From NCBI RefSeq assembly GCF_013409365.1, contig NZ_JACCBA010000001.1, positions 5,270,001 through 5,334,000 on the forward strand: a stretch of DNA of 64,000 nucleotides, read 5' to 3'. This DNA comes from Actinomadura luteofluorescens. Lineage in GTDB: Bacteria; Actinomycetota; Actinomycetes; Streptosporangiales; Streptosporangiaceae. This document shows positions 40,730-64,000 of this stretch, one piece after another. Numbering within the stretch: position 1 is the stretch's first letter; every line of letters begins with the position of its first letter. The translations under genes and the position numbers were made by a program. Below the pieces are notes generated by a model. That model saw nothing but the letters and a program-made list of their open reading frames with translations, did no database searches and was not told the origin of the DNA.

Positions 40730-40757
40730 TTGTGCGCGTATTCACAAGGGCTTAACC
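40730..40757 (+). promoter_or_regulatory. Rex operator overlapping the rex promoter
   Basis: TTGTGCGCGTATTCACAA (40730-40747) has the Rex operator outline TTGTG-N8-CACAA. TTGTGC can also act as the -35 and TTAACC (40752-40757) as the -10, 16 bases apart, so binding of Rex would block its own promoter. rex starts at 40791. Confidence 0.85.
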
Positions 40758-40790: not shown

Positions 40791-41531
40791 GTGACACCTC
40801 GACAGAACCGCCACCGCGACCGCGCGGGCCGCGGCATCCCCGAAGCCACCGTGGCGCGGCTCCCGGTCTACCTGCGGGCCCTCACCGGGCTCCAGGAGCG
40901 CGACGTCGCGACCGTCTCCTCCGAGGAGCTCGCGGCCGCGGCCGGCGTCAACTCGGCCAAGCTCCGCAAGGACCTGTCCCACCTCGGCTCCTACGGCACC
41001 CGCGGCGTCGGCTACGAGGTGGAGTACCTCGTCTACCAGATCTCCCGCGAGCTCGGCCTCACCCAGGACTGGGTCGTCGCCATCATCGGCGTCGGCAACC
41101 TCGGCCGGGCCCTGGCCGGCTACGGCGGTTTCGCGTCCCGCGGCTTCCGCGTGGCGGGCCTGCTCGACGCCGACGAGTCCATCGTCGGGCAGGAGATCTC
41201 CGGCATGACGGTGGAGCACACCGACCGGCTGGAGGACATGATCGCCGGGCACGGGGTGTCCATCGCCGTGATCGCGACCCCGGCCGGGGCCGCCCAGGGG
41301 GTGTGCGACCGCGTGGTCGCCGCCGGCGTGACGAGCGTTCTGAACTTCGCCCCCGTGGTGCTGTCGGTGCCCGACGGGGTGGACGTGCGCAAGGTCGATC
41401 TGTCCATCGAGCTGCAGATTCTCGCGTTCCACGAGCAGCGCAAGGCGGGCGGGCCCGACGGCTTCGCCCCGCTGGCGCCCGCGGAGGCGCCGGCCGGCGC
41501 TGCGCAGTACGTGGAAACGGTGGAAGCATGA
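40791..41531 (+). CDS. rex: Redox-sensing transcriptional repressor Rex
   Basis: 246 aa. N-terminal winged helix (GIPEATVARLPVYLRALTGL, VSSEELAAAAGVNSAKLRKD, LSHLGSYGTRGVGY) and a C-terminal Rossmann NAD(H) domain (VAIIGVGNLGRALAGYGGFA, AGLLDADESIVGQEI, VIATPAGAAQGV, VLNFAPVVLSVPDGV). The C-terminal swap helix is present. Rex senses NADH/NAD+ and represses respiratory and heme genes. It has its own operator just upstream. The GTG start with AGCAGG upstream is plausible. hemA follows after about 145 bases. Confidence 0.97.
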   Translation: MTPRQNRHRDRAGRGIPEATVARLPVYLRALTGLQERDVATVSSEELAAAAGVNSAKLRKDLSHLGSYGTRGVGYEVEYLVYQISRELGLTQDWVVAIIGVGNLGRALAGYGGFASRGFRVAGLLDADESIVGQEISGMTVEHTDRLEDMIAGHGVSIAVIATPAGAAQGVCDRVVAAGVTSVLNFAPVVLSVPDGVDVRKVDLSIELQILAFHEQRKAGGPDGFAPLAPAEAPAGAAQYVETVEA

Positions 41532-61967: not shown

Positions 61968-62681
61968 ATGACCCGCGCTTCACTCGACAAGCAGCCCGCC
62001 GACGTGGCGGCGATGTTCGACGGCACCGCCGAGCGGTACGACCTGATGAACTCGCTGATGACCGGCGGCCAGGACCGGCGGTGGCGGCGGGAGGTCGTCC
62101 GGGCGCTGGAGGCGCGGCCGGGTGAGCGTGTCCTCGACCTCGCGGCCGGCACGGGGACCTCGTCCGTCCCGTTCGCCGAGGCCGGGGCCGACACGGTCGC
62201 GTGCGACTTCTCGCTCGGCATGCTGCGCGTCGGGGTGCGCCGCCAGGCGAACGTCACGGGCCTGCGGTTCGTGGCCGGCGACGCGCTGCGGCTGCCCTTC
62301 GCGGACGGCTCCTTCGACGCCGTCACGATCTCCTTCGGGCTCCGCAACGTCGCCGACACCGGGCTGGCGCTGCGCGAGCTGCGCCGGGTCGCCAGGCCCG
62401 GCGGGCGGCTGGTGATCTGCGAGGTGAGCCACCCCCCGAACGCGCTGCTGGCGCTCGGCCACAAGGCGCACCTGCGCTACGGGCTGCCGCTGCTGGCGCG
62501 GGTCAGCTCCAACCCCGACTCCTACCGCTACCTTGCCGAGTCGACGCTCGCCTGGCCCGACCAGGCGGGGCTGGCACGGCTCATCCAGGACGCGGGATGG
62601 GGCGAGGTGCGCTGGCGCGACCTCACGTTCGGCGTGGTGGCCCTGCACCATGCCGTCAACCCGTCCGTCAAGCCTGCTTGA
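61968..62681 (+). CDS. menG: Demethylmenaquinone methyltransferase
   Basis: 237 aa, UbiE/MenG family: C-methylation of demethylmenaquinone. [20 protein letters not shown] is the family N-terminus, [20 protein letters not shown] is the SAM site, and [50 protein letters not shown], the latter two as family motifs, follow. In streptomycetes menG sits near the geranylgeranyl reductase and the nuo operon, as seems to be the case here. Confidence 0.96.
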
Positions 62682-62756
62682 CAGACCGCGGCCGGTGGTT
62701 CGGACCGGTCCAAACTTGGACCGGCCCAGAAGTACCCACCAGTCGTGATAAAGGAA

Positions 62757-62794
62757 TAGACTCCCCACCGGATCCTTGTGAAGTACTTCACAAG
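62757..62794 (+). promoter_or_regulatory. Promoter -10 and perfect Rex operator before the reductase gene
   Basis: TAGACT (62757-62762) can be a -10. CTTGTGAAGTACTTCACAAG (62775-62794) is a perfect 20-bp palindrome and contains the full Rex consensus TTGTGAA-N4-TTCACAA (62776-62793). It ends 22 bases before the GTG at 62817, so bound Rex would block transcription just after initiation. Confidence 0.9.
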
Positions 62795-62816
62795 CGAACG
62801 AGCGAAGAGGACCATC

Positions 62817-64000
62817 GTGACCGACTCCACCCGACACGCGGATGTCATCGTCGTCGGGGCGGGCCCCGCCGGATCGTCGACCGCCTATTGGCTCGCGCAG
62901 GCCGGCCTGGACGTCTTCCTGCTGGAGAAGGCCACCTTCCCGCGCGACAAGATCTGCGGCGACGGCCTCACCCCGCGGGCCGTCCGGGCGCTCATCGGCA
63001 TGGGCGTCGACATCAACGACCCCGGCTGGGGACGCAACAAGGGCCTGCGCATCTACGGCGGCGGCGTCAAGGTCGAGCTGCCCTGGCCCGAGCTCGCGTC
63101 CTTCCCCGACTTCGGCCTCGTCCGCAAGCGCACCGACCTCGACCAGCTCCTCGCCGAGCACGCCGCCAAGGCCGGCGCTCAGCTCCTGCAGGGCTGCAAC
63201 GTGACGGGCCCGATCGTCGACGAGCGCACCGACCGCATCACCGGGGTCACCGCCGAGTACGAGGGCGAGGAGCTGGAGTTCCACGCGCCCCTGGTCGTCG
63301 CCGCCGACGGCAACTCGACCCGGCTGTCGCTCGCCATGGGGCTGCGGCGCCGCGAGGACCGGCCCATGGGCGTCGCGGTCCGCCGCTACTTCCAGACCCC
63401 CCGCCACGACGACGACTACATGGAGGCGTGGCTGGAGCTGTGGGACGGCCAGCGCCTCCTGCCCGGCTACGGCTGGGTGTTCGGCGTCGGCGACGGCACC
63501 TCCAACGTCGGCCTCGGCCTGCTCAACACCAGCAAGGCGTTCCAGAGCGTCGACTACCGCGGCATGCTCAAGAGCTGGTGCGCGCAGATGCCGGAGGACT
63601 GGCAGTTCGACGAGGAGCACGCGACCTCCAAGATCCGCGGCGCGGCGCTGCCGATGGGCTTCAACCGGCAGCCGCACTACACCCGCGGGATGCTGCTCGT
63701 CGGCGACGCCGGCGGCATGATCAACCCGTTCAACGGCGAGGGCATCGACTACGCCCTGGAGTCCGGCCGGCTGGCCGCCGACATCATGGTCCAGGCGCTC
63801 GCCCGCCGCACCCCCGCGCAGCGCGAGCGGACCCTCTACGAGTACCCGCGCATCCTCAAGGACGACCACGGCGGCTACTTCACCCTCGCCCGCGTGTTCG
63901 TCCAGGCGATCGGCGACCCGCGGGTCATGAAGTTCCTGACCGCGCACGGCCTGCCGCACCCGACGCTGATGCGCTTCACGCTGAAGCTCCTCGCGAACCT
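62817..64000 (+). CDS. Geranylgeranyl reductase family / menaquinone reductase (partial)
   Basis: Runs off the right edge after about 394 codons. FAD Rossmann loop VIVVGAGPAGSSTAYWLAQA, then FPRDKICGDGLTPRAVRAL, AADGNSTRLSLAMGL and the second FAD motif LLVGDAGGMINPFNGEGIDY, ALESGRLAADIM. Family members saturate isoprenoid tails; in mycobacteria the relative MenJ reduces one double bond of menaquinone. GTG start with GAAGAGG upstream. Neighbour menG and the Rex operator both support a menaquinone/respiration role. Confidence 0.92.
   Translation, partial: MTDSTRHADVIVVGAGPAGSSTAYWLAQAGLDVFLLEKATFPRDKICGDGLTPRAVRALIGMGVDINDPGWGRNKGLRIYGGGVKVELPWPELASFPDFGLVRKRTDLDQLLAEHAAKAGAQLLQGCNVTGPIVDERTDRITGVTAEYEGEELEFHAPLVVAADGNSTRLSLAMGLRRREDRPMGVAVRRYFQTPRHDDDYMEAWLELWDGQRLLPGYGWVFGVGDGTSNVGLGLLNTSKAFQSVDYRGMLKSWCAQMPEDWQFDEEHATSKIRGAALPMGFNRQPHYTRGMLLVGDAGGMINPFNGEGIDYALESGRLAADIMVQALARRTPAQRERTLYEYPRILKDDHGGYFTLARVFVQAIGDPRVMKFLTAHGLPHPTLMRFTLKLLAN

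Follow-up and report, generated by a model that had tools for sequence, protein, structure and literature searches.

A conserved palindrome before a geranylgeranyl-reductase-family gene and the complex I genes of Actinomadura luteofluorescens is very probably a Rex operator

Analysis of a 64-kb window of Actinomadura luteofluorescens DNA (throughout, the whole stretch of 64,000 nucleotides) identified a perfect 20-bp palindrome, CTTGTGAAGTACTTCACAAG, at positions 62775–62794, to which, judged from sequence, the redox-sensing repressor Rex very probably binds, ahead of a reductase gene and the genes for complex I. We hold it highly likely that this palindrome is the operator by which Rex would keep the reductase gene, and nuoA-N at least in part, switched off until NADH builds up. 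The reading draws on the site itself, on its conservation, on its co-occurrence with rex and with nuoA, and on the order of the genes.

The palindrome, whose core TTGTGAAGTACTTCACAA occupies 62776–62793, matches the Rex operator (ROP) consensus TTGTGAAN4TTCACAA with 0 mismatches and is the sole perfect match in the window, so that the uninterrupted 20-bp Rex-consensus palindrome that the initial annotation had placed before the GTG start of the reductase gene is confirmed. When up to 3 mismatches were allowed, the window contained 3 matches, compared with 0.10 expected from shuffled sequences. The 9.62-Mb genome has 2 perfect sites against an expectation of 0.0004, an independent-base estimate that uses the GC content of the window; at ≤3 mismatches the pattern occurs at 45 places against 17 for a reversed control pattern, so that a large share of the weakest matches is due to chance. 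The core of the palindrome was conserved in 59 of the 59 nearest relatives (L016–L074), with nuoA following in all of them.

The rex gene lies in the same window, at 40791–41531 on the forward strand, as had been proposed together with an operator of its own. Its product scored 376 bits against NF003992 (cut-off 226) and matches solved Rex structures, for example 3ikv, 3ikt and 5zz5/7wb3, and the operator-like site TTGTGCGCGTATTCACAA, with 2 mismatches, precedes the gene at 40730–40747. Such a site, with 1–2 mismatches, was borne by 30 of 30 rex loci (L142–L171), which are the best-scoring ones of a class-wide rex search and come mostly from two families; in 17 of the 30 the sequence before rex is TTGTGCACGCGTTCACAA, which equals the footprinted rex operator given in the accessible part of PMC5355995. 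The rex operator starts with TTGTGC, not TTGTGA, in 29 of the 30 loci and in the window, an asymmetry of the autoregulatory operator that appears to be conserved.

Ten places in the genome match the consensus with ≤2 mismatches, and five of them precede genes for the reductase, an NDH-2-like protein, a WhiB-family protein, Rex and an AtpI-like protein. Upstream of the NDH-2-like gene, a name given by interpretation where Pfam yields only Pyr_redox_2, the other perfect consensus site stands about 34 bp away (L098:1501–1518; genome 7262012–7262029). The WhiB-family gene, whose small product is WhiB by Pfam and has no NCBIfam name, is preceded at about 41 bp by ATGTGAACCCGTTCACAA with 1 mismatch (L099:1501–1518; genome 2470700–2470717), and the AtpI-like gene, of the ATP-synthase-associated NCBIfam Cg1360 family, by a site with 2 mismatches. 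Excerpts of PMC5355995 name rex, ndh2, wblE, atpI, nuoA1 and cydA1 among the Rex targets of Streptomyces avermitilis. The five remaining places do not fit; one, for instance, lies between a glycosyl hydrolase gene and an NlpC/P60 gene, and another is 160 bp from the site of the WhiB-family gene, a distance at which a second palindrome, TTGAGAATCCTTTCTCAA, is found. A Rex/Crp-like palindrome with 2 mismatches is found at L103:1501–1518 (genome 4623842–4623859), about 37 bp past the HTH_Crp_2 match, at 4623635–4623805, of a Crp-type gene.

Because TTGTGAAN4TTCACAA is a special case of TGTGAN6TCACA, the motif alone cannot separate Rex from regulators of the cAMP receptor family (Crp/GlxR). The palindrome fits TGTGAN6TCACA and GTG(N)8CAC, as a perfect Rex consensus always does; the Crp pattern is moreover enriched in the genome (99 places for TGTGAN6TCACA with ≤1 mismatch, against 20 for the control), which has 6 HTH_Crp_2 matches. 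Since Rex sites also fit the Crp pattern, the two regulators were compared by co-occurrence and by motif detail.

For co-occurrence, the same set of 196 genomes of the class served for the reductase and the rex searches. After 10 partial or paralogous rows had been dropped, 118 reductase loci at ≥53% identity were examined, that of the window included, and linked nuoA genes were sought within 1.5 to 2.5 kb; nuoA follows in 96 of the 118. Twelve contrast loci of 34–38% identity had neither a site nor a linked nuoA. Among the nuoA-linked loci, the site was present in 92 of 93 for which rex was detected and in 1 of 3 for which it was not, the exceptions being G069, which has rex and a linked nuoA and lacks the site, and G059, which has the site and in which rex was not found; the G059 assembly is 94% complete, and rex was found in its congeners G012 and G031. 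The sites number 93 and are spread over 92 genomes, 22 families and 49 genera. Control scans covered 117 upstream regions, all of the 118 except L257, which was below the cut-off; the real pattern was found in 93, the reversed pattern in 0, and each of 199 shuffled palindromes in at most 3.

A second sample comprised 21 more distant public loci (L075–L095), 17 of them with a linked nuoA. At ≤3 mismatches the site was found in 8 of 10 with rex and in 0 of 7 without (Fisher p 0.002), and at ≤2 mismatches in 4 of 10 and 0 of 7 (p = 0.10), p-values that overstate independence because the loci are related, 3 of the 7 rex-negative ones being Georgenia and two of these of one species. Of the 8 positives, the four from Cellulomonas have 3 mismatches; L085 and L093 lack the site although both rex and a linked nuoA are present, and the site was also missing from L076, L078, L086 and L090, which have no linked nuoA. 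We further scanned 16 genomes in which rex was not detected, G006 and G169 included; none of their 17 nuoA loci had a site with ≤3 mismatches within up to 1450 bp upstream, one of the loci offering 509 bp. Outside this count are G059, which has the site, G069, which has rex and lacks the site, and four weak nuoA-like loci, which had none. Rex may have been missed through an assembly gap in G019 (93% complete), in G169 (94%) and in the metagenome-assembled genomes of the second sample. A search of the orders to which G006 and G019 belong yielded no genomes beyond these two.

A Crp-type HTH match was found in all 10 genomes checked, including G006, G019, G169 and G059. G006 and G169, with nuoA linked, and G019, whose contig ends soon past the reductase gene, have a Crp-type gene and neither detected rex nor the site, and only G059 offers the opposite case, a Crp-type gene with the site present. 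Motif detail points the same way. Rex, unlike Crp, needs an N6 spacer that begins with A and ends with T, and such a spacer was present in 59 of the 59 near-relative TGTGAN6TCACA sites. The strong Crp motif of Streptomyces coelicolor, quoted as GTG(N)6GNCAC in the portion of PMC10033298 at hand, fits 0 of these 59 sites and 0 of the 93 class-wide ones. As the 93 had been chosen by the Rex consensus, the count was redone with regulator-neutral patterns: GTGAN6TCAC gave 95 matches, from 93 of the 96 nuoA-linked upstream regions, and A/T at the N6 ends was present in 92 of the 95. On motif detail and co-occurrence with rex, Crp/GlxR was rejected as the binder, and we regard a site of that family as very unlikely.

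The site follows nuo rather than the reductase gene. Across the class it was found at 93 of 96 reductase loci with a linked nuoA and at 0 of 22 without one. The reductase gene and nuoA are separated in 18 genomes of family f16, inferred to be Streptomyces, and all 18 have the site 65–125 bp before nuoA, as TTGTGACCTGCTTCACAT in 12 and as TTGTGAACTGCCTCACAT in 6; TTGTGACCTGCTTCACAT is identical, letter for letter, to the operator that lies within the nuoA1 footprint of S. avermitilis Rex as given in excerpts of PMC5355995. In two genomes with rex and without a nuoA match (G002 and G111), the reductase gene lacks the site and has a prenyl-synthase-like gene directly behind it, and in G026 the first reductase copy has the site while the second copy, without nuoA, lacks it. 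The 0 of 22 unlinked loci and the 18 of 18 separated nuoA genes indicate that selection ties the site to nuo and, together with the co-occurrence with rex, that the operator is very probably that of Rex and follows nuo. The original Rex assignment is thus supported: it survives the comparison with Crp/GlxR, the site goes with rex and nuoA, and 12 of the 18 f16 operators equal that of S. avermitilis.

We next consider the surroundings of the palindrome. A candidate −10 element of the reductase promoter, TAGACT, lies at 62757–62762 on the forward strand; in an alignment of 60 sequences, 5 of its 6 columns are invariant and one is ≥90% conserved. From TAGACT it is 12 bp to the palindrome, and from there 22 bp to the GTG start at 62817, with GAGGA at 62807–62811 in between. 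A scan for consensus sigma-70 promoters gave no match at the reductase promoter or at a promoter-like block before nuoA, and the −10 and promoter assignments accordingly draw on conservation. The positions in the initial proposal, with the palindrome between a TAGACT −10 and the GTG, were confirmed. With the reductase–nuo order and the conserved TAGACT 12 bp upstream, the palindrome lies at the probable promoter of genes of a type that Rex is known to target. Further upstream, on the forward strand at 61968–62681, is a demethylmenaquinone methyltransferase gene of the menG/ubiE type (NF001241, 344 bits, cut-off 327), the upstream neighbor of the operator. Just after it, at 62702–62727, comes an inverted repeat with 12-bp arms, GGACCGGTCCAA and TTGGACCGGCCC, which is conserved in part among relatives and may be a terminator without a T-run; a terminator scan gave no match there.

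This arrangement suggests how the switch might work. The direction of regulation is taken, by analogy, from papers on Streptomyces and Staphylococcus. NADH-free (or NAD+-bound) Rex would bind immediately past the probable transcription start, blocking transcription of the reductase gene and, by presumed read-through, of at least part of nuoA-N; as NADH builds up, Rex would be released, and complex I and the reductase would be made. Such a position has a precedent at S. avermitilis cydA1, where excerpts of PMC5355995 describe a Rex footprint from −3 to +25; the operator there likewise lies just downstream of the transcription start, but its target differs, and the three cydA-containing loci scanned in the present genome have no Rex-like site with ≤3 mismatches. 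A perfect inverted repeat within a probable 5′ leader could also be read as an RNA hairpin rather than a protein site. That is extremely improbable: almost all sites share GTGAA and TTCAC but differ in the four letters at the center, their spacing from the extrapolated start codon ranges from 4 to 255 bp, and the S. avermitilis nuoA1 operator, in the extracts of PMC5355995, lies between −35 and −10 and so outside any leader.

Beyond the palindrome, the gene on the forward strand from 62817 runs past the right edge of the window at 64000, with its stop at 64071–64073, and encodes an FAD protein of the geranylgeranyl reductase family (TIGR02032, 270 bits, cut-off 158.8). The initial name, geranylgeranyl/menaquinone reductase, holds for the family; the protein scored 252 bits against the MenJ menaquinone reductase model NF045655, for which the cut-off is 700, and with a score below that cut-off menaquinone is only a presumed substrate. 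The nearest solved relative by sequence is 3oz2, an archaeal-type digeranylgeranylglycerophospholipid reductase. The guess that nuo would follow beyond the edge proved right: nuoA starts at window coordinate 64231 (L096:332), 157 bp past the reductase stop, and NuoF, NuoI, NuoL and NuoN were identified downstream of it. A prenyl-diphosphate-synthase-like gene (NF042417, 373 bits, below the cut-off of 600) begins 10 bp past nuoN, at L096:16192–17232 (genome 5350091–5351131), and with the methyltransferase and reductase genes on the other side, quinone-type genes thus flank nuo. L294 and L295, from two genomes in which nuoA had no match, have a similar prenyl-synthase-like gene directly 3′ of the reductase gene.

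A second promoter-like block precedes nuoA. Just past the right edge, at window coordinates 64148–64168, lies the conserved sequence ATTGATCACCTTGGCTAGGGT, part of a conserved region at L096:249–332 (64148–64231); with its TAGGGT it was found in 46 of the 59 near relatives at ≤2 errors. With this conserved block of its own before nuoA, the share of nuo that is read from the predicted Rex-controlled promoter may be large or small. In a narrower version of our reading, whose probability overlaps with it, the Rex operator would serve mainly the reductase gene, and nuo would run largely independently here on its own promoter, as the block and the 157-bp reductase–nuoA gap of this genome, which has no Rex-like site at ≤3 mismatches, would allow. 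We consider this unlikely, given that the site accompanied none of the 22 reductase loci without linked nuoA and all 18 of the separated nuoA genes.

In 22 of the 59 relatives, a perfect YGTGAN6TCACR palindrome stands at one fixed offset past the nuoA block; 16 of the 22 fit the Crp motif, and the A/T of Rex sites was found in 0 of the 22. The core of this palindrome begins 13 bp past TAGGGT, and the Rex core TGTGAA 14 bp past TAGACT. The present genome lacks this second palindrome. Among the 96 class-wide reductase–nuoA gaps, 11 match YGTGAN6TCACR with ≤1 mismatch in an uncontrolled count, and 2 of these 11 have A/T at the N6 ends as in Rex sites. The pattern CGTGACN4GTCACG (≤1 mismatch) occurs at 72, 86, 105 and 110 places in four genomes against 21–24 for the reversed control, an excess that leaves its regulator unnamed. 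A tentative and somewhat unlikely scenario is that Actinomadura relatives have two tandem promoters of nearly the same geometry, with Rex acting before the reductase gene and a Crp-type regulator before nuoA, and that the lineage of the window dropped the second operator and kept Rex alone. If so, NADH state and a cAMP-type signal would be read separately on one respiratory and quinone unit consisting of the reductase gene, nuoA-N and the prenyl diphosphate synthase gene.

The predicted Rex operator has close relatives in known systems. With the Rex operator of S. avermitilis nuoA1-N1 it shares the repressor family, the motif and the complex I genes, but it differs in its perfect symmetry, in standing before the reductase gene and in its position past the probable −10, the nuoA1-N1 operator being placed between −35 and −10 (excerpts of PMC5355995). 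Its half-sites are identical to those of the Staphylococcus aureus consensus TTGTGAAW4TTCACAA, although the center is GTAC, not W4, and the target genes differ; mismatch-free sites were those bound most strongly by S. aureus Rex (PMC2883068, in part). Rex represses nuoA-N in S. coelicolor according to the accessible part of PMC8981147, in agreement with the initial statement that nuo is a Rex target in Streptomyces. Literature searches that combined geranylgeranyl reductase with Rex or with nuo found no paper, and the words menaquinone and geranylgeranyl are absent from PMC5355995.

As Rex control of nuo is already known in Streptomyces, the present site is a further, well-conserved case of a known respiratory switch. 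What it adds is its position upstream of a quinone-tail-type reductase gene, the breadth across families and the way in which the site follows nuo. The split arrangement in the presumed Streptomyces and the genomes without nuo provide natural experiments on which genes keep the operator. Together, these observations widen the range of a redox switch of complex I, known from experiments, to many families of actinobacteria, and the usual inclusion of a quinone-tail-type reductase within it suggests that quinone chemistry and the amount of complex I may be set jointly by NADH.
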